From contig NC_015145.1 in NCBI RefSeq assembly GCF_000189535.1, forward strand, positions 1,302,001-1,366,000: 64,000 nucleotides of DNA. Direction: 5' to 3'. This document shows, in pieces, positions 4,863 through 46,878 of the stretch. The number at the start of each line of letters is the position of its first letter. Position 1 is the stretch's first letter. A program made the translations under genes and the position numbers. A model generated the notes under the pieces. It ran no database searches. It was not told the DNA's origin and worked only from the letters and a program-made list of their open reading frames with translations. Source of the DNA: Pseudarthrobacter phenanthrenivorans Sphe3. Its GTDB lineage: Bacteria; Actinomycetota; Actinomycetes; Actinomycetales; Micrococcaceae.

Positions 4863-5798
4863 ATGTCTTCTTCGCTTCCTCCCGCCGCCTACCGCACCAC
4901 CGCGACGGACCACACCCCTGATTCCGGAGACTCCCGGCAGAAGGGCTTTCCTCCCGCGCCCGAGCCCCTGCCTGTGCCGGTCATGGACAACCACACCCAT
5001 CTGGACTTCCCTGACGGCAAGGCCCCCGTGGGAGTAAAGGCGGCGCTGGATGCCGCGGAGGCCGTGGGCGTCCGAGGCGCAATCCAGGTGGGCTGCGATC
5101 TGGAGTCTTCCAGGTTCACCGTCCAGGCGGTTGACCTGGACGATCGGCTGCTCGGGGCAGTGGCGCTGCACCCCAACGACGCGCCCCGCTATGCGGCACG
5201 CGGCGAGCTTGAAGAGGCGCTCGCCGAGATTGAGCGGTTGGCGCTCCATCCGCGGGTCAGGGCAATTGGCGAGACGGGACTCGACTTCTTCCGGACGGAG
5301 GGGGAAGGCCTGGCGCATCAGCGGTACTCCTTCCGCCGCCACATCGACATCGCAAAACGGCTGGACCTTACGCTCCAGATCCACGACCGTGACGCGCACG
5401 ACGACGTAGTCCAGGTCCTGCGTGAAGAAGGGGCTCCGGAGCGGGTCGTTTTCCATTGCTTCTCGGGCGACGGGGAGCTCGCGAAGATCTGCAACCAGCA
5501 GGGCTGGCGGATGTCCTTTGCGGGGACGTTGACTTTCCGGAACGCAGGCAACCTTCGTGAGGCCCTTGCGGTTGCCGATCCCAGCCTGGTGCTGGTGGAG
5601 ACCGATGCGCCGTTCCTGACCCCGCATCCCCACCGGGGGAGGGCGAATGCAAGCTACATGATTCCCTACACAGTCCGCGCCATGGCCGAATTGACAGGAA
5701 CTGACCTGGCTGAGATGTGCTCCCGGATAGCCGGTAACACCGTGGCCGCATACGGGAGCTGGGACCAGGAGCCCGTCGCCGCACCGTTACCTCGATGA
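4863..5798 (+). CDS. TatD family metal-dependent hydrolase
   Basis: A 311-residue TatD-type TIM-barrel hydrolase; family members are metal-dependent nucleases. Metal ligands are visible in order: the HxH pair in MDNHTHLDF (~residues 41-47), the Glu in AIGETGLDFF, the His in LQIHDRDAHDD, the His in FHCFSGDGE and the Asp in VETDAPFLTPHP. The first ~40 residues are a Pro/Thr-rich extension without obvious structure; a shorter start at the internal Met before DNHTH is possible. It is divergent from moxR and directly upstream of rpf, an order common in actinobacteria. No terminator follows its stop codon immediately. Confidence 0.92.
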   Translation: MSSSLPPAAYRTTATDHTPDSGDSRQKGFPPAPEPLPVPVMDNHTHLDFPDGKAPVGVKAALDAAEAVGVRGAIQVGCDLESSRFTVQAVDLDDRLLGAVALHPNDAPRYAARGELEEALAEIERLALHPRVRAIGETGLDFFRTEGEGLAHQRYSFRRHIDIAKRLDLTLQIHDRDAHDDVVQVLREEGAPERVVFHCFSGDGELAKICNQQGWRMSFAGTLTFRNAGNLREALAVADPSLVLVETDAPFLTPHPHRGRANASYMIPYTVRAMAELTGTDLAEMCSRIAGNTVAAYGSWDQEPVAAPLPR

Positions 5799-5818
5799 AT
5801 ACCAGGTATGCAATTTTC

Positions 5819-5848
5819 TTGGTTGCTTTATAACGCTCCGGTTACAGT
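5819..5848 (+). promoter_or_regulatory. Possible promoter for rpf
   Basis: TTGGTT and TACAGT are separated by 18 bp just after the tatD stop. The second hexamer fits the TAnnnT pattern of actinobacterial -10 elements. It would give a leader of about 170 nt before rpf. No experimental support is possible from sequence alone. Confidence 0.3.
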
Positions 5849-5935
5849 GGACAACTATTAGCCGGGGTCGGGGAAGGCCATCGGATAATTTCACTTCAAT
5901 TTGCAGCTGGACTGCTGGGCTCTGCCCTGGCCTGA

Positions 5936-6003
5936 CCGTTGCGCGGAGTGTGGCGGCGCAACGGTGCCCGGACTGCCTTGACGGCGGTGCCGGGCATTTT
6001 ATT
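5936..6003 (+). terminator. Two hairpins in the rpf leader, the second terminator-like
   Basis: The first hairpin has a perfect 9-bp stem, CCGTTGCGC paired with GCGCAACGG across 11 nt (5936-5964). The second starts at 5965 with TGCCCGG pairing with CCGGGCA at 5990-5996, extended inside by CTGCC/GGCGG, and is followed at once by TTTTATT. It ends about 20 nt before the rpf ATG. This looks like an intrinsic terminator placed inside the leader, so it could either end tatD transcripts or act as an attenuator for rpf. Confidence 0.55.
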
Positions 6004-6023
6004 GCGCGATTCCCCGTGCCCGG

Positions 6024-7217
6024 ATGGTCCTAAAGTTACGGGCAATCGTGATCAAGTTCTTCACCTCGGACGGCAAGTTCAGCTTTATCAAGGTTGGCGC
6101 CCAACTGCTGGTGCTGTGCGCACTCGTAGTGGGCCTCGTAGCCTTCGTCGGCAATAACAAAACCATCACGCTCAACGTTGACGGCAAGGTCTCTTCGGTG
6201 CAGACCTTCGGCGGCACGGTGGGGCAGGTGGTCAAGAGTGCGAACCTCGAGCTAAACCCTGCCGACCGCATCTCGCCGGCGGTTGATGCATCAGTCCGGA
6301 ACGGTACGGTCATCAACGTCAACAAGGCCAAAGAAGTCAAGGTCAGCCTTGACGGTTCCGAAAAGGTTGTGAACACCACCGCCCAGGACGTCGCCGGACT
6401 GGTTACCGAACTCGGCGTGGCCAGCGCGTCCTCTGTTTCCGTCCCGAAGGACGCCCAGCTGTCCGTCGCCGGATCCTACGTCTCCATCTCCACACCTAAA
6501 TCCGTCAGCATCGTTGCCGACGGAAAGGTGGACACCGCCACCACGACGGCGGCCACGGTGGGCAAAGTCCTCGAAGACGCCGGCCTGACCCTCGGCGCGA
6601 ACGACCGCATGTCGCAGCCGGCCAACGCCCACGTGGTGAACAACATGGTTATCAAGGTGTCCCGCGTGGACAACACCCGGACCGACGTTACCTCCGAGGA
6701 CGTGCCCTTCGAGAGCGTCACAACGGAAAGCGCCGAACTCCTCAAGGGCGAAAAGGAAGTCACCCAGGCAGGCGTGGCGGGCAAGGTGGAGAAGACTTAC
6801 AAACTGGTTCTGGTTGACGGCCGCGAAGCCTCCCGCACCCTGGTCGCCGAAAACGTTGCCGTACAGCCCGTAACGGAGAAGATCACGGTTGGCACCAAGC
6901 CGAAGCCCATGGCCCAGGCCGCTCCCGCCGCCAGCGCCGGCACCAATACCGGCGCCGCTGCTCCGGCAATGATGAATGAAGCCATGTGGGACAAAATCGC
7001 CCAGTGTGAATCCGGCGGAAACTGGAGCATCAACACCGGCAATGGCTACTACGGCGGCCTCCAGTTCGATATCCAGACCTGGATTGGTGCCGGCGGCGGG
7101 GCTTACGCGCCCAACGCCAGCCTTGCCACCAAGGCCCAGCAAATCGATATCGCAAACCGCGTCTACGCCCAGCGCGGCCTGCAGCCGTGGGGCTGCGGAT
7201 GGGCTGCCACCAGCTGA
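6024..7217 (+). CDS. rpf: Resuscitation-promoting factor (DUF348-G5-Rpf domain)
   Basis: A secreted muralytic enzyme that cleaves peptidoglycan and stimulates regrowth of dormant cells. Order of parts: short basic N-terminus, hydrophobic export segment (~22-40), three DUF348 repeats (roughly 45-205), a G5 domain (~215-290), an Ala/Pro linker, and the lysozyme-like Rpf domain (~320-397). The catalytic Glu lies in AQCESGGNW (E329 from the ATG used here), and the paired Cys of the fold are in QCESG and PWGCGW. A GTG at 6048 giving MIKFFTSDGKF is an equally plausible start; neither start has a clear Shine-Dalgarno sequence. The leader contains a terminator-like hairpin. Confidence 0.93.
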   Translation: MVLKLRAIVIKFFTSDGKFSFIKVGAQLLVLCALVVGLVAFVGNNKTITLNVDGKVSSVQTFGGTVGQVVKSANLELNPADRISPAVDASVRNGTVINVNKAKEVKVSLDGSEKVVNTTAQDVAGLVTELGVASASSVSVPKDAQLSVAGSYVSISTPKSVSIVADGKVDTATTTAATVGKVLEDAGLTLGANDRMSQPANAHVVNNMVIKVSRVDNTRTDVTSEDVPFESVTTESAELLKGEKEVTQAGVAGKVEKTYKLVLVDGREASRTLVAENVAVQPVTEKITVGTKPKPMAQAAPAASAGTNTGAAAPAMMNEAMWDKIAQCESGGNWSINTGNGYYGGLQFDIQTWIGAGGGAYAPNASLATKAQQIDIANRVYAQRGLQPWGCGWAATS

Positions 7218-7328
7218 TCCCAGCATATTCGTGCCCGCCAGGGCGCGGCGGCCGGGCCCGGATCATCGGGCCCGGCCGCCGCCGTTAAAGGGGCAGGACG
7301 CACGCGGTGCGCGGGATAGGATACCTAG

Positions 7329-8201
7329 GTGACTGAACCAACCCCCGCCGCGCCCGCACCGTTGTTCGGTGCATCCGACATACGCCGGCTGGCGGAGGAG
7401 ATCGGCATCCGCCCCACCAAAACCCTGGGCCAGAATTTTGTGATTGACGGTAACACCATCCGCAGGATTGTGGCCGCGGCGGATATCGGACCGGACGAGA
7501 CAGTGCTTGAGGTGGGCCCGGGGCTGGGTTCCCTTACCCTTGGGCTGCTCGATGCAGCGGCGTCGGTGGTTGCTGTGGAAATCGATCCCGTCCTTGCGGC
7601 AAAGCTCCCGGAAACCGTCAAGGAATGGCGCCCGGGTGCTGCCGGCAACTTCCATCTGGTGCACGCGGACGCCATGAAGGTCACCGAATTGCCCGTGCAG
7701 CCCACCGCCCTTGTGGCCAACCTGCCGTACAACGTCGCCGTTCCCGTAGTGCTCCACCTGCTGCAGTATTTCCCCAGCCTTCGGCACGGCCTGGTGATGG
7801 TCCAGGACGAGGTGGCTGACCGGCTCGCCGCAGGCCCCGGATCAAAAACCTATGGCGTGCCCTCGGTGAAGGCCGCCTGGTACAGCCAGATGCGCAAGGC
7901 CGGCGTGATCGGGATGAACGTCTTCTGGCCGGCGCCGAAAATACATTCAGGCCTGGTGGCTTTCACGCGCCGTGAACCACCGGCCACCACCGCCACCAGG
8001 GAGCAGGTCTTCGCAGTGGTGGACGCCGCCTTCGCCCAGCGGCGCAAGACCCTCCGCGCAGCCCTGGCCGGCTGGGCCGGCGGCGCACCCGAAGCGGAGC
8101 GCTGCCTGGTGGCTGCCGGCGTCGACCCCACCGCCAGGGGTGAGGTCATAGACATTGGCGCTTTCGCCAAAATTGCAGAAGCCAAGCAGGCGCTGGCATG
8201 A
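7329..8201 (+). CDS. rsmA: 16S rRNA (adenine1518/1519-N6)-dimethyltransferase
   Basis: KsgA/RsmA dimethylates two adjacent adenosines near the 3' end of 16S rRNA late in small-subunit assembly, using S-adenosylmethionine. The 290-residue length is normal. Visible motifs are [13 protein letters not shown] near the N-terminus, the SAM site [14 protein letters not shown], and the catalytic [10 protein letters not shown]. The start is GTG with AGGAT upstream. The stop overlaps the ispE start as ATGA, so the two are translationally coupled; rpf-rsmA-ispE is a conserved actinobacterial order. Confidence 0.96.
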
Positions 8202-43037: not shown

Positions 43038-43796
43038 ATGATCGAGCTTCCCTTCGCGGGAAACGGGCCGGTGCATGCCGCCTTTCTCGGGCTGGGAATC
43101 CTTTCAGCCCTGCTGTTCTACGCCTATGAGAAGCGCCGCCGCGGGCTGTCCGATCCCAGACTTTGGCCGATTGCAGGATTCGCGGTGGCCTTCGGGGCCA
43201 TCGGCTCAAGGGTGCTCACGTGGGACTTTTCCCGCGGGGTTTCGTTGGCTGAGTGGTGGGGCAATGGTGACCGGAGTATCCTGGCGGGCCTTGTCGGGGC
43301 CTGGCTTGGCGTCCTCCTGGCGAAACGGCTGACGGGGTACCGGGAGAAGACCGGTGATCTCATCGCACCCGCGGTTGCCCTGGCGCTGATCATTGGGCGG
43401 GTGGGCTGCCTCCTCACCGAGTTGCCCGGGACTCCGACCGGCGGCGCGTGGGGGATTGTCCTCACCCCCGCGCAGGCTGCTCTGGTGAACGGATCCCCTG
43501 GCGTGGGGCTGCATCCGTCCTTTGCCTATGAGATTGCCTTCCATCTTGCGGCGTTCGGGGCAATGTGGCGTTTTCGGGACAGCCTGCCTCATCCTGGCGA
43601 CCTCTTCATCTGCTACGTGGCTTCCTACGCCCTGTTCCGCTTCGGCGTGGAGTTCGTCCGCGGCAATGAAGTGCTCTGGCTGGGGATGAGCCGGCCGCAA
43701 TGGTTCCTGTTGGCTGTCCTCCCTTTGCTGTTCTGGCGGATGCAGCGGGTGTTCGGGAAACCACTCCGCCCAACGATGGAAGGAACAGCGGCATGA
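43038..43796 (+). CDS. Prolipoprotein diacylglyceryl transferase-like membrane protein (divergent Lgt)
   Basis: A 252-residue protein with about seven hydrophobic segments, related to Lgt, which transfers diacylglyceryl from phosphatidylglycerol to lipoprotein cysteines. Retained features: GRVGCLLTELPGTPTGGAWG in place of the GR.GNF.N.E..G signature, then HPSFAYEIAF and FRFGVEFVRGNE. The Asn that follows GR.G in Lgt is Cys here, and the acidic residue is kept. It is therefore unlikely to be the housekeeping Lgt. Its stop overlaps the start of the next membrane gene (ATGA), and a radical SAM gene follows, suggesting one unit for lipid or lipoprotein modification. That role is inference. Confidence 0.82.
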   Translation: MIELPFAGNGPVHAAFLGLGILSALLFYAYEKRRRGLSDPRLWPIAGFAVAFGAIGSRVLTWDFSRGVSLAEWWGNGDRSILAGLVGAWLGVLLAKRLTGYREKTGDLIAPAVALALIIGRVGCLLTELPGTPTGGAWGIVLTPAQAALVNGSPGVGLHPSFAYEIAFHLAAFGAMWRFRDSLPHPGDLFICYVASYALFRFGVEFVRGNEVLWLGMSRPQWFLLAVLPLLFWRMQRVFGKPLRPTMEGTAA

Positions 43797-44119
43797 GCGA
43801 GGACAGCAGTCCGTCGGGCGAGGAGGAGCCCCCTGAACCGGCGGTCGGCTCCATGGGGCTCGGAATCCTCCTGGGGGCAGTGGCCCTCTACGGCCTCTAT
43901 CTCGTGGTGCCGGTTGTTTTCGGTGGACCATATGGCGTGCGCTTCCTGACCGGGCCGTCCACCTTCGTTCCAATCGCCGTCTACCTGGCGATAGCCATTG
44001 TGCTGGCGGTCAGGCCCCGCACGGCCCGGTGGGGTGCGGGGCTGCTGATTGGCCTGGGAATATTTACCCTGCTCGGTGGCGGCCTCTGTGTCTCATTCCT
44101 CGCTGGGGTGAGAGCCTGA
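43793..44119 (+). CDS. Small membrane protein, copy 1 of a duplicated pair
   Basis: 108 residues. A Glu/Pro-rich cytoplasmic-type N-terminus (MSEDSSPSGEEEPPEPAV) is followed by three hydrophobic segments: LGILLGAVALYGLYLVVPV (~23-42), FVPIAVYLAIAIVLAV (~60-76) and GAGLLIGLGIFTLLGGGLCV (~82-103). The last two segments and the Gly-rich end are nearly the same in copy 2. The ATG overlaps the stop of the Lgt-like gene as ATGA, indicating translational coupling. I do not recognise a characterised family. The pairing with Lgt-like and radical SAM genes suggests a membrane or scaffold function. Confidence 0.82.
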   Translation: MSEDSSPSGEEEPPEPAVGSMGLGILLGAVALYGLYLVVPVVFGGPYGVRFLTGPSTFVPIAVYLAIAIVLAVRPRTARWGAGLLIGLGIFTLLGGGLCVSFLAGVRA

Positions 44120-44120
44120 G

Positions 44121-44198
44121 ATGACCATGCTGTTCCGGCGGATGCATCGGGTCTTCGGGAAACCGGTCCGCCCCACGATGGAAGGAGCAGCGGCATGA
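44121..44198 (+). pseudogene. 25-codon remnant of the Lgt-like C-terminus
   Basis: A short open frame encodes MTMLFRRMHRVFGKPVRPTM followed by EGAAA and a stop. This matches the last residues of the Lgt-like protein (LLFWRMQRVFGKPLRPTMEG). It is left over from the tandem duplication. Its TGA overlaps the ATG of copy 2 just as in the parent arrangement, so it could still be translated to keep coupling to the downstream gene. Confidence 0.7.
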
Positions 44199-44554
44199 CT
44201 GAGGACACCCCCGACGTTCCCCGAAACCCGCCTCCAGCTGGCCCAGGACATGGTCCACAGCAGCCAGCCAGCGGCGGCTCGATAGGCGCGGGAGTCCTAC
44301 TTGGTGCCTTCGCGCTCTATGCCCTCTACGTGAGCGCGACGATGCCCGCCGGTGGACCCACGATGTGGCCCGCCAGCTACCTTGGGGGAGCAGTTGCCTT
44401 CGCACCGGTTGCCGCCTACCTGGCGATAGCCATTGTCCTTGCGGTAACGAAAAAGACATCGCGTTTCGGCGCGGGGATGCTTATCGGGCTCGGGATTTTC
44501 CTGCTGCTCGGAGGCGGACTCTGCATCGGATCCCTTGCTCAGTTGGGAATCTAG
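44195..44554 (+). CDS. Small membrane protein, copy 2 of a duplicated pair
   Basis: 119 residues. A Pro-rich polar N-terminus (TEDTPDVPRNPPPAGPGHG) precedes three hydrophobic segments: GAGVLLGAFALYALYVSAT, FAPVAAYLAIAIVLAV and GAGMLIGLGIFLLLGGGLCI. It clearly shares descent with copy 1; the N-terminal region has diverged most. AAGGAGCAG lies 6-12 bases upstream of the ATG, and the start overlaps the stop of the 25-codon remnant. The radical SAM gene begins two bases after its stop. Confidence 0.82.
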   Translation: MTEDTPDVPRNPPPAGPGHGPQQPASGGSIGAGVLLGAFALYALYVSATMPAGGPTMWPASYLGGAVAFAPVAAYLAIAIVLAVTKKTSRFGAGMLIGLGIFLLLGGGLCIGSLAQLGI

Positions 44555-44555
44555 G

Positions 44556-46160
44556 ATGGTTTCATCGCCTTTGCGTTCCGCACGCACACTGCCCGGCCCG
44601 GGCCAGCCGCTCCGCGGCGACCGGATCCACCGGTACGTCACAGCCTTCTGCCCGCACTGCCACGAGACAAACCCTCCGCTCGCGCAGGTACGGCGCCTCT
44701 CCGGGGTGCTGCTGGTCCGCGATGGCCGGGTGTGGCTGGAACGTGGTTGCCCGGACCACGGCCTTGTGAGCACCCTCTATGACGAATCTCCCGAGATCCT
44801 GCGCTACCTGGAGAAGTGGCAGGCGCCGACCAAGCAGCACGTCCCGGACCAGGCCGGCAATTACCGCCAGATCCCGGAGGCCTACGCCTACGGCCTGCCC
44901 GCCATGCAGACGCAGCACACGTGCATCCTCCTGCAGGACATCATTGAACACTGCAACCTGCGCTGCCCCACCTGCTTCACCGCCTCCGGCCCGCAGCTGC
45001 AGGGAGTCGCGCCGCTGAGCGAAGTGCTCGCGAACGTCGACACCCGCCTCTCCCGGGAGAACGGGCGCCTGGACGTGCTGATGCTCTCCGGCGGAGAGCC
45101 CACGCTGTATCCCCATCTGGCCGAACTTTTGGATGAGCTCGTGGCCCGGCCAATCGTCCGGATCATGGTGAACAGCAACGGGATGCTGATCGCCACCGAT
45201 GATGAATTGCTTTCGCTGCTGGCCAGGCACCGGGACCGGGTGGAGGTGTACCTCCAGTACGACGGCCCGTCCAAAGAAGCATCCATCCACCACCGAGGGG
45301 GAGACCTGACCCGTTTCAAGGACCTGGCCATTTCACGTCTGTCCGAAGCGGGCATTTTCACCACCCTGACCATGACGGCAGCCCTCGGCATCAACGACGG
45401 CGAGGTCGGCGCCGTCGTCATGCGGGCCCTGGAAACCCCGTTCGTGGGCGGGGTTGCGCTGCAGCCGGTGTTCGGGTCCGGGCGCGGCCACGGCATCGAT
45501 CCCACGGACCGGCTCACCCACACCGGTGTCCTTGACAGGCTCGCCGGGCAGACCGGCGGTGTGGTTTCCTGGCACGACCTGACTGCACTCCCGTGCTCCC
45601 ACCCGCACTGTGCATCGGTGGGGTACATGCTGAAGGACGATGCCGGAGTCTGGAGGTCACTCGCGGCGCTCATCGGGCATGATCAGCTGCTTGCCTGGCT
45701 GGAACTCAATCCTGACAGCATCGCCAACCGCATCGCCGATTCCGCGATCCCGCTTGAGCTGCGCAACCTCATGAAGTCCTCCCTGCTGGACCTGCTGAGC
45801 GAGCAATCCTCACTGTCCCATCCGCGGACCATGGACCTCTGGAAGAACATCTGCACCCAGTGCGACCTCGGCATCGGCACACTCACCACATTGGCTGCCG
45901 GCAAGCTGCCGGGCCAGCAGCAACGGCTGCGCCGGCTCCTCGCAGAGCGGGTCACCAGGATCATGGTGAAACCGTTCATGGATATTTCCACAATGATCGA
46001 GGAACGGCTCACCCAATGCTGCGTCCACGTGGGCACCAAGAGCGACGCCGGTGATCACCAGTGTGCTCCCTTCTGTGCTGTTCAGGCGTGGCCGGCATTG
46101 GCGCGTCAGCGAATGAGCACAGCCACGGGCCGGGAACTCCTCCCGGTCCGCCAGCTTTGA
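44556..46160 (+). CDS. Radical SAM protein, COG1964/MJ0619-like
   Basis: A 534-residue iron-sulfur enzyme. N-terminal Cys cluster: FCPHCHETNPP (C32, C35) and RGCPDHG. Radical SAM site CNLRCPTC (C133, C137, C140), followed by the SAM-binding LMLSGGEPTLYPHL. Extra C-terminal cysteines: NICTQCDLG (C433, C436), TQCCVHVG (C488, C489) and QCAPFC (C503, C507). The FMDISTM...CCVH...PFC arrangement is what I recall of the COG1964/MJ0619 group, which includes the archaeal tetraether lipid synthase and bacterial relatives linked to membrane-spanning lipids. It follows the Lgt-like and small membrane genes. A lipid substrate is therefore plausible but not shown. The start is the ATG two bases after the previous stop. 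Confidence 0.87.
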   Translation: MVSSPLRSARTLPGPGQPLRGDRIHRYVTAFCPHCHETNPPLAQVRRLSGVLLVRDGRVWLERGCPDHGLVSTLYDESPEILRYLEKWQAPTKQHVPDQAGNYRQIPEAYAYGLPAMQTQHTCILLQDIIEHCNLRCPTCFTASGPQLQGVAPLSEVLANVDTRLSRENGRLDVLMLSGGEPTLYPHLAELLDELVARPIVRIMVNSNGMLIATDDELLSLLARHRDRVEVYLQYDGPSKEASIHHRGGDLTRFKDLAISRLSEAGIFTTLTMTAALGINDGEVGAVVMRALETPFVGGVALQPVFGSGRGHGIDPTDRLTHTGVLDRLAGQTGGVVSWHDLTALPCSHPHCASVGYMLKDDAGVWRSLAALIGHDQLLAWLELNPDSIANRIADSAIPLELRNLMKSSLLDLLSEQSSLSHPRTMDLWKNICTQCDLGIGTLTTLAAGKLPGQQQRLRRLLAERVTRIMVKPFMDISTMIEERLTQCCVHVGTKSDAGDHQCAPFCAVQAWPALARQRMSTATGRELLPVRQL

Positions 46161-46180
46161 GCCAGTGACAGGGAGGAAAG

Positions 46181-46555
46181 ATGGGTTCCGCATCGGATGC
46201 CAGACGTATTGCAGCCGGGCCATTGCCGTCCCAGCTGATGCGCTCCAAGCATGCAGGCCGTCACGGACACAAGCCTGACCCTGAATCTGAACCGCAGTCC
46301 ACGGCTCCCTTCGATCCGCTGCGGCTGTGCATCTTCGCCACCATCGCCCTGCTCGGCTGGGTTGCCGGTCCGGCAGCACTCACGGTCTTCGCAGCCATCG
46401 GATTCGCAGGGTACTGGAAAGCGCGACGGAAGGGCCTGACCAGGTCGAAATGCTATCTCCGGGACACCAGGCTGGTGCTGACCTACCTGGGCATCCTGCT
46501 CGGCGCCGGGCTGTGGGGGCTGTATGTACTGGCGGCCCGATTACTGGGCCTGTGA
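46181..46555 (+). CDS. Two-to-three-helix membrane protein downstream of radical SAM gene
   Basis: 124 residues. The first ~45 are polar and basic (SKHAGRHGHKPDPESEPQST), then hydrophobic segments PLRLCIFATIALLGWVAGPA and ALTVFAAIGFAGYW, a basic loop (KARRKGLTRSKCYLRD) and a last helix LVLTYLGILLGAGLWGLYVL. GGGAGGAAAG lies just before the ATG. The gene starts 20 bp after the radical SAM stop and is very likely in the same transcript. I do not recognise the family. Confidence 0.78.
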   Translation: MGSASDARRIAAGPLPSQLMRSKHAGRHGHKPDPESEPQSTAPFDPLRLCIFATIALLGWVAGPAALTVFAAIGFAGYWKARRKGLTRSKCYLRDTRLVLTYLGILLGAGLWGLYVLAARLLGL

Positions 46556-46689: not shown

Positions 46690-46878
46690 ATGGCAACAAC
46701 TGCTCTTGTGAGGCCGCGCCGCGGCAAGATCATCGGCGGCGTCTGCGCCGCCCTGGCAGCCCGCTTCGGACTCCCGAAATTCCTGGTCCGGCTGGGGTTC
46801 GTCATCTTTGGGCTGGTAGGCGTCGGGGAGTTGGCCTACATCGTGCTGTGGATCATCATCCCCAAGGAACCAGTCTAG
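46690..46878 (+). CDS. PspC domain protein
   Basis: A 62-residue protein consisting almost only of a PspC domain: VRPRRGKIIGGVCAALAARF, then FLVRLGFVIFGLVGVGELAYI and the ending IVLWIIIPKEP. PspC domains are small membrane modules tied to envelope stress response. It is preceded by 134 bp in which I see no convincing gene. It lies downstream of the membrane-protein cluster, so cotranscription is possible. Confidence 0.88.
   Translation: MATTALVRPRRGKIIGGVCAALAARFGLPKFLVRLGFVIFGLVGVGELAYIVLWIIIPKEPV

Follow-up and report, generated by a model that had tools for sequence, protein, structure and literature searches.

Lipoprotein diacylglyceryl transferase (Lgt) and the radical S-adenosylmethionine (SAM) enzyme tetraether lipid synthase (Tes) are the described proteins closest to the two larger products of the locus analyzed here, a cassette of five genes in the genome of Pseudarthrobacter phenanthrenivorans Sphe3. 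The whole stretch of DNA that was analyzed, hereafter the window, comprises 64,000 nucleotides (NC_015145.1, positions 1,302,001 to 1,366,000 of the forward strand), and the cassette occupies positions 43038-46555 of it. It encodes, on the plus strand and nearly contiguously, an Lgt paralogue (LgtL), two small three-helix proteins (TM3a and TM3b), a radical SAM protein (rSAM) and a further small membrane protein (TMD).

E. coli Lgt is inactive when its Asn146 is replaced by Ala (N146A), and the accessible part of the 2026 paper with this finding reports Cys at this position in the Lgt of Leptospira and in MSMEG_5408, the second Lgt of M. smegmatis; low Lgt activity is presumed there for MSMEG_5408, and that part of the paper ties no radical SAM gene or special substrate to it (PMC13251419). 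Tes (7tol, 7tom) is made of a zinc ribbon, a radical SAM core and a C-terminal Cys domain, according to the portion of its description available (PMC8941075), and rSAM is alike in this. TrsS, the family that rSAM matches best, is tabulated without a function in the accessible part of PMC13188914. The MYXO-CTERM/myxosortase system, as presented in the available text, resembles the TM3 proteins in having an invariant Cys beside a C-terminal helix, and Lgt-like lipidation of that Cys has been proposed and is unproven; the order of elements differs, being Cys, helix and an Arg cluster inside in MYXO-CTERM and a basic loop, helix, Cys and a little-charged tail outside in TM3, so that the TM3 tails do not show the MYXO-CTERM sorting signal (PMC11980579). 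A first-pass annotation of this DNA, made from the letters alone, knew of no described system with such a composition. Within the literature open to us by licence we found none either, nor any account that pairs an Lgt with a radical SAM enzyme; the accessible parts of PMC8939145 and PMC7641849 describe none, and no paper on COG1964 was found. We regard the cassette as a variation on lipoprotein modification, beside which a categorically new reading is possible. The interpretation that we prefer, and to which we give an even chance of being correct, is a dedicated post-translational lipidation system in which TM3a and TM3b would be the substrates and LgtL would lipidate a Cys in their tails.

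Recurrence and linkage of the cassette genes

A class sample of 148 genomes was searched with rSAM at E 1e-40 and with LgtL at E 1e-10, and each search found matches in 18 genomes: 15 close (E 1e-226 or better) and three distant (2e-50 to 2e-44) for rSAM, and 15 close (E 1e-41 or better) and three weak (about 1e-11) for LgtL. The genomes with a close rSAM match and those with a close LgtL match are the identical set of 15; the co-occurrence of these families, named beforehand by the first-pass annotation as a test, is thereby borne out. In all 15 the two genes lie on one contig and the same strand, their matches being separated by 29 to 766 bases, and the genomes belong to six families and eight genera. 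The distribution is patchy, the cassette being present in 10 of 120 genomes of the window's own family and in 6 of 296 of a phylum sample (the window genome included in each). A Verrucomicrobiota sample gave 2 positives in 194 genomes, the centre genome itself and one divergent relative. The LgtL-rSAM pair is also found together in Verrucomicrobia, at about 30% identity, and in one Gemmatimonas. LgtL lies 5' of rSAM in many actinomycetes and in the verrucomicrobial locus L078, and 3' of it in Microbacterium, in part of the window's family and in the other Verrucomicrobia; gene order thus varies between lineages, and the linkage therefore survives rearrangement. The LgtL-rSAM cassette is a real but patchily distributed unit.

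An ordinary explanation would be that a spare housekeeping Lgt has drifted beside an unrelated radical SAM gene, and Lgts with the N146C replacement do exist outside the cassette (also in the accessible text of PMC13251419). The 15/15 linkage among 148 genomes already contradicts drift, and the recurrence in Verrucomicrobia and a Gemmatimonas and the separate clade formed by LgtL speak against it as well, making this explanation highly improbable.

The five-gene, one-strand, near-touching layout that had been annotated was confirmed, the open reading frames (ORFs) lying at the positions and on the strand given for them. LgtL and TM3a overlap by 4 bases (ATGA), and gaps of 75, 1 and 20 bases separate TM3a from TM3b, TM3b from rSAM and rSAM from TMD, respectively. 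A GGAAGGA box 5' of TM3b resembles one 5' of TM3a. A promoter scan gave no sites (0.6 expected) and two terminator-like sites (2.3 expected), and was uninformative. The genome of the window measures 4.5 Mb, and the rSAM encoded there has its closest named relatives in Arthrobacter.

Neighbouring genes were surveyed in 52 loci obtained by a scan of GTDB contigs with rSAM, and neighbour families were clustered in 40 varied loci having both rSAM and LgtL (E 1e-8, 40% overlap; very divergent families would escape). Among the families recurring in at least 4 of the 40 loci no further clearly relevant one was found. The remaining recurrent clusters are further LgtL, TM3 and TMD frames, or shadow frames of the cassette genes, read antisense or out of frame; one further cluster consists of large ORFs in four loci (L020, L022, L023, L031) and includes what we take to be a major facilitator superfamily transporter. 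A HemG-like flavodoxin and a lipoprotein encoded downstream had been annotated as possible electron donor and substrate, and both were dropped as cassette parts: a flavodoxin match lies near rSAM in only 3 of the 52 loci (L010, L011, L013), and a close lipoprotein match likewise in 3 of 52 (L011, L013, L018), the match in L028 reaching only 23%. All loci with a nearby flavodoxin or close lipoprotein match are from Arthrobacter or Pseudarthrobacter. Between TMD and the flavodoxin sits a short ORF (46690-46878, plus strand), presumably PspC-like, and similar ORFs are located 3' of the cassette in L003, L011 and L013. Against the PADLOC models of anti-phage defence, rSAM matches viperin only in part (E 5e-9 and 6e-5) and the other four proteins have no match.

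LgtL and rSAM compared with Lgt and Tes

LgtL (43038..43796, plus strand; 252 amino acids) passes the Pfam cut-off of PF01790 (86.1 bits vs 24.9; E 3e-24) and falls under that of the Lgt equivalog TIGR00544 (40.5 vs 118.9). As had been annotated, a Cys replaces the conserved Asn: in a profile alignment to E. coli Lgt (5azb), C124 of the GRVGC motif (codon 43407..43409, plus strand) aligns with N146, and Cys stands in place of this essential residue in 18 of 18 aligned LgtL rows. The equivalents of Lgt R143, Y235, R239, E243 and R246 are retained, and R121 and R201, which correspond to the essential R143 and R239, are invariant across the 18 rows. Because these catalytic residues (Arg, Tyr and Glu) are kept, a lipid-transfer context for the cassette is likely. 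The window LgtL differs from E. coli Lgt also by Leu in place of H103 and by His in place of Y26 (H13). The pair Y26H and N146C, here H13 and C124, is the same as in MSMEG_5408 (PMC13251419, as far as accessible), which is probably a cassette LgtL.

In a tree with 21 other PF01790 proteins of cassette-bearing genomes (one of which, L139, is mis-framed), the 20 LgtL rows form one clade apart from all of these, with support of 97/99 and in 96% of bootstrap trees. Furthermore, LgtL is an additional copy, another Lgt-family protein being present in 18 of 18 cassette genomes examined; a search of the PDB with the other Lgt of the window's genome gave no match. The Asn-to-Cys replacement was rejected as a sole diagnostic mark, since Lgts outside the LgtL clade carry Cys too. 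The GRxGC motif is shared by the non-cassette Lgt of two Verrucomicrobia with a cassette (L132, L141), in which a second Cys pair (GCC) is present, and by L143 and L148, two more Lgt-family members encoded in the Gemmatimonas genome. Cys-type Lgts are more widespread than the cassette.

The radical SAM protein (44556..46160, plus strand; 534 amino acids from an ATG start) has a Radical_SAM domain and an N-terminal HMPTM zinc ribbon, and is as rich in Cys as had been annotated, with 13 Cys invariant in 16 of 16 rows of the cassette alignment and, in a 25-row alignment with some rows trimmed, 10 invariant and 2 nearly so. The sole Tes row aligned (L049) has nine of the 13, Cys 123, 347, 433 and 489 being extra in rSAM. 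The best NCBIfam match of rSAM is TrsS (NF045646; E 2e-52), but its 178.2 bits are far under the cut-off of 490, and against the Tes model NF045702 it scores 136.9 bits with a cut-off of 450. In a tree of 31 rows a 23-row cassette clade (support 99/98) stands apart from two Tes rows (L049, L052) that score above the Tes cut-off and for which the tree carries a warning of long branches and odd composition. Membership of rSAM in Tes or TrsS was ruled out by these cut-offs and the tree. A structure model of rSAM has low confidence (pLDDT 65), and its overall fold match alone was used; in Foldseek the best PDB matches of this model are two Tes entries, at E 3e-23 (7tom) and 7e-23, followed by the RiPP (ribosomally synthesized and post-translationally modified peptide) maturase SkfB at 3e-8. 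We conclude that rSAM is, by this model, built like a Tes-type enzyme, yet we do not call it a Tes.

The assignment of rSAM to a Tes-type group by the first-pass annotation therefore holds for the best full-length fold match of the low-confidence model, and does not hold for clade membership. Its suggestion that the cassette makes or attaches an unusual lipid fared similarly: the lipid-transfer context is likely, given the retained catalytic residues, and the Tes clade membership, whose failure it had named as counting against the suggestion, was not found. A cassette that makes lipid would have rSAM altering or joining the acyl chains of a free lipid, with a lipid or sugar as the acceptor of LgtL and with TM3 and TMD as structural proteins. 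It gains from Tes as the nearest fold and from the residues of LgtL that the Lgt crystal study placed at the phosphatidylglycerol site; it suffers from the position of rSAM outside the Tes clade and from the lack of any lipid-synthesis gene among the families recurring in at least 4 of the 40 loci, and it leaves both the tail-Cys signature and a distal TM3 copy, described below, unexplained. We hold it to be unlikely.

Two further groups were noted beside these comparisons. L078 (G242), at 5115-7656, is a divergent verrucomicrobial cassette whose rSAM comes much nearer in score to TrsS (319 bits) and Tes (277 bits) and falls outside the 23-row clade, yet the locus has LgtL and a tail-Cys protein; it is possibly a link between radical SAM groups. 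Another actinomycete group of COG1964-type radical SAM proteins, about 30% identical and without a close LgtL, is represented by L076, L077 and L075 (G050, G059, G007). Just upstream of the radical SAM gene of L076 a small membrane protein is encoded that contains the motif NCGCFG and that we assume to be MauE-like; in L077 a reading frame located downstream contains the motif FKACCAAAY.

Small membrane proteins of the cassette

TM3a (43793..44119, plus strand; 108 amino acids) and TM3b (44195..44554, plus strand; 119 amino acids) are the duplicated three-helix proteins of the annotation; they are 54% identical and belong to no Pfam family. In the TM3 alignment (A2, 11 actinomycete rows) P7, G24, G83 and C99 alone are invariant. 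Cys99 of TM3a (codon 44087..44089, plus strand), which lies at the outer terminus of the final helix, is the proposed acceptor, and its counterpart in TM3b (codon 44522..44524, plus strand; identified by the alignment and the L055 row of the neighbour survey) is the 10th residue from the C-terminus.

Neighbours were picked by a rule on position and length that also required a short tail and two or more helices, Cys being ignored in the selection. The survey covered 83 loci, of which 11 are not full cassettes, leaving 72 that include identical or nearly identical loci (L028/L065, L030/L088, L037/L093, L102/L103) and many Arthrobacter rows. A candidate was picked in 58 of the 72 loci, and 57 of those 58 have a Cys-bearing one. 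A Cys in the tail, or in the outer half of the helix before it, is present in 68 of 72 rule-picked candidates, against a background of 1 in 27 obtained with the same filter, minus position, over 400 kb of the window's genome. The four candidates without Cys (L021, L024, L028, L044) are upstream of the first cassette gene and were judged, from their sequences, to be probably unrelated genes. Among the 14 loci without a rule candidate, inspection by eye found a tail-Cys protein in five (L020, L022, L036, L039, L090), those of L036 and L090 having a single helix; another of the 14, L051, is at a contig start. In the class sample a tail-Cys protein adjoins the cassette in 15 of 15 cassette genomes, the profile alone finding 11 of them. 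The paired small membrane proteins had been treated as accessories at first; this comparison across loci makes them the likely substrates.

The survey yielded 67 distinct tails, 40 of them from non-Arthrobacter-like loci. Gly occupies position -2 of the tail Cys in 58 of the 67; the Cys lies 19 to 30 residues (median 20) past the last Lys or Arg, and tail lengths range from 5 to 17 residues, with a median of 9. Across phyla the small proteins have little in common beyond this spaced tail Cys, usually with Gly at -2. The net charge falls from +2.4 ahead of the last helix to +0.3 in the tail, which is therefore predicted to be outside. Within a group the tails past the Cys are conserved (FCTGVNP..LY and close variants).

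Conserved post-Cys tails also suit a RiPP-like explanation, in which TM3 would be a membrane-bound precursor. Either ahead of its insertion or in the course of it, rSAM would form a bond or an epimer at the tail Cys or close to it, and LgtL would then lipidate or bind the product. Small, fast-changing, multi-copy genes next to a radical SAM enzyme are usual for RiPP precursors, and the TM3 genes are of this kind; SkfB, moreover, is the next fold match of rSAM after Tes. That match is far weaker than the one to Tes (E 3e-8 vs 3e-23), the tail is predicted to end outside whereas rSAM should be cytosolic, and no protease, peptidase or leader-binding protein was found among the neighbour families recurring in at least 4 of the 40 loci, where very divergent ones would be missed. 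This explanation, too, seems to us rather unlikely.

TM3-like proteins are not confined to the cassettes. The window's genome has a third Cys-bearing TM3 (C1:3284853-3285188), 1.94 Mb from the cassette and with the same kind of tail, and a fourth, weak match (C1:1265312-1265551, E 1e-4). The TM3 profile also matches, more weakly on the whole, 10 class genomes without close rSAM and LgtL. In the five of these that were read, three TM3-like proteins of one genus lack the tail Cys, the protein of L127 ends in Cys and has a different build, and that of L128 (G094), a weak match, has its Cys 10 residues from the C-terminal end and only 10 residues past the last Arg, a spacing shorter than in any of the cassette tails. 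A tail-near Cys can exist without the cassette; none at the cassette spacing was present in the five.

TMD (46181..46555, plus strand; family A3, 124 amino acids) has matches with E values of about 1e-31 or lower in 12 genomes of the class sample of 148, all within the 15 with a cassette. The three cassette genomes without TMD are of one genus, that of L028, [Mycobacterium] fortunisiensis, whose LgtL is identical to that of G131, and TMD was not found at the verrucomicrobial cassettes. A likeness of TMD to fatty acid desaturases (PF00487, 22.9 vs a cut-off of 29.7, in 1 of 14 family members) was taken as chance and rejected. LgtL, TM3 and TMD all have conserved Cys, and according to the accessible part of PMC13251419 the N146C of Leptospira Lgt possibly forms a stabilising disulfide, both of which would agree with a membrane redox or metal complex, where the Cys of the three proteins form a disulfide relay or a metal site and no lipid is transferred. 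The absence of TMD from the cassettes just mentioned, the varying copy number of TM3 and the Lgt catalytic set retained by LgtL argue against such a complex, which we consider improbable.

A proposed lipidation of C-terminal tails

In the lipidation system that we prefer, TM3a and TM3b would be inserted into the membrane so that the N-terminus stays inside and the C-terminus comes to lie outside. The last TM3 helix would mimic a lipoprotein signal peptide at the wrong end of the protein, with a basic stretch, some 20 mostly hydrophobic residues, G-x-Cys and a tail of about nine residues, the signal being shifted in register (G-x-C instead of x-G-C). With the tail outside, the TM3 Cys would sit where the Lgt active site works, and LgtL, whose active site is expected to face outward, would move diacylglyceryl from phosphatidylglycerol onto it, forming a diacylglyceryl thioether bond. 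The role of substrate suits TM3 better than that of subunit because of the variable copy number, the tandem copies and the distal copy. The radical SAM protein, taken as cytosolic, would perform a radical step on this pathway. Its target is most probably the lipid, by analogy with Tes, which acts on the lipid tails of archaea, and less probably the peptide tail; the enzyme's resemblance to Tes in build and its pairing with an Lgt speak for the lipid. This step is the least certain part of the mechanism. TMD would probably dock rSAM or the substrate at the membrane.

Several observations weigh against this proposal, among them the tail-near Cys of L128 and the lack of a lipid gene among the families recurring in at least 4 of the 40 loci. 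No tail-Cys protein lies beside the cassette in L030 (the same genome as L088), L031, L033, L037 (the same genome as L093), L044, L054 and L089. The TM3 topology is a prediction from hydropathy and charge only. The canonical lipobox ([LVI][ASTVI][GAS]C following a signal peptide at the N-terminus) is not matched, only 7 of the 67 tails fitting even a widened box, with the Cys C-terminal; such a misfit would also suit a dedicated enzyme. Three loci have one to three extra TM3-like genes without the tail Cys after one Cys-bearing copy (L100 7719-8081, L102 7970-9149, L103 8227-9406); they are from small genomes (2.2-2.3 Mb) of one genus of the window's family, in a fourth of which, L101, none was seen, and the extra copies are perhaps former substrates or partners. 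Finally, since E. coli N146A is inactive, N146C could mean a weak or changed activity of LgtL.

A stronger version of the proposal, which we put forward tentatively and as less probable than lipidation as such, is that the cassette defines a new class of lipoproteins: small polytopic proteins that a dedicated Lgt would lipidate on a Cys where the last helix ends on the extracytoplasmic side, instead of at an N-terminal lipobox, and whose lipid or tail would be remodelled beforehand by a Tes-like radical SAM enzyme, yielding, for example, a macrocyclic or membrane-spanning diacylglyceryl anchor.

The proposal names a candidate substrate for Cys-type Lgt paralogues such as MSMEG_5408. It would also supply a testable partner for a Tes-like radical enzyme that occurs in Arthrobacter and its kin, cultivable bacteria that grow aerobically. 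Furthermore, it offers a model for Cys-based C-terminal sorting, where Lgt-like lipidation is proposed in the accessible text of PMC11980579. If the proposal is true, lipoprotein biogenesis would extend from N-terminal lipoboxes to C-terminal membrane tails.

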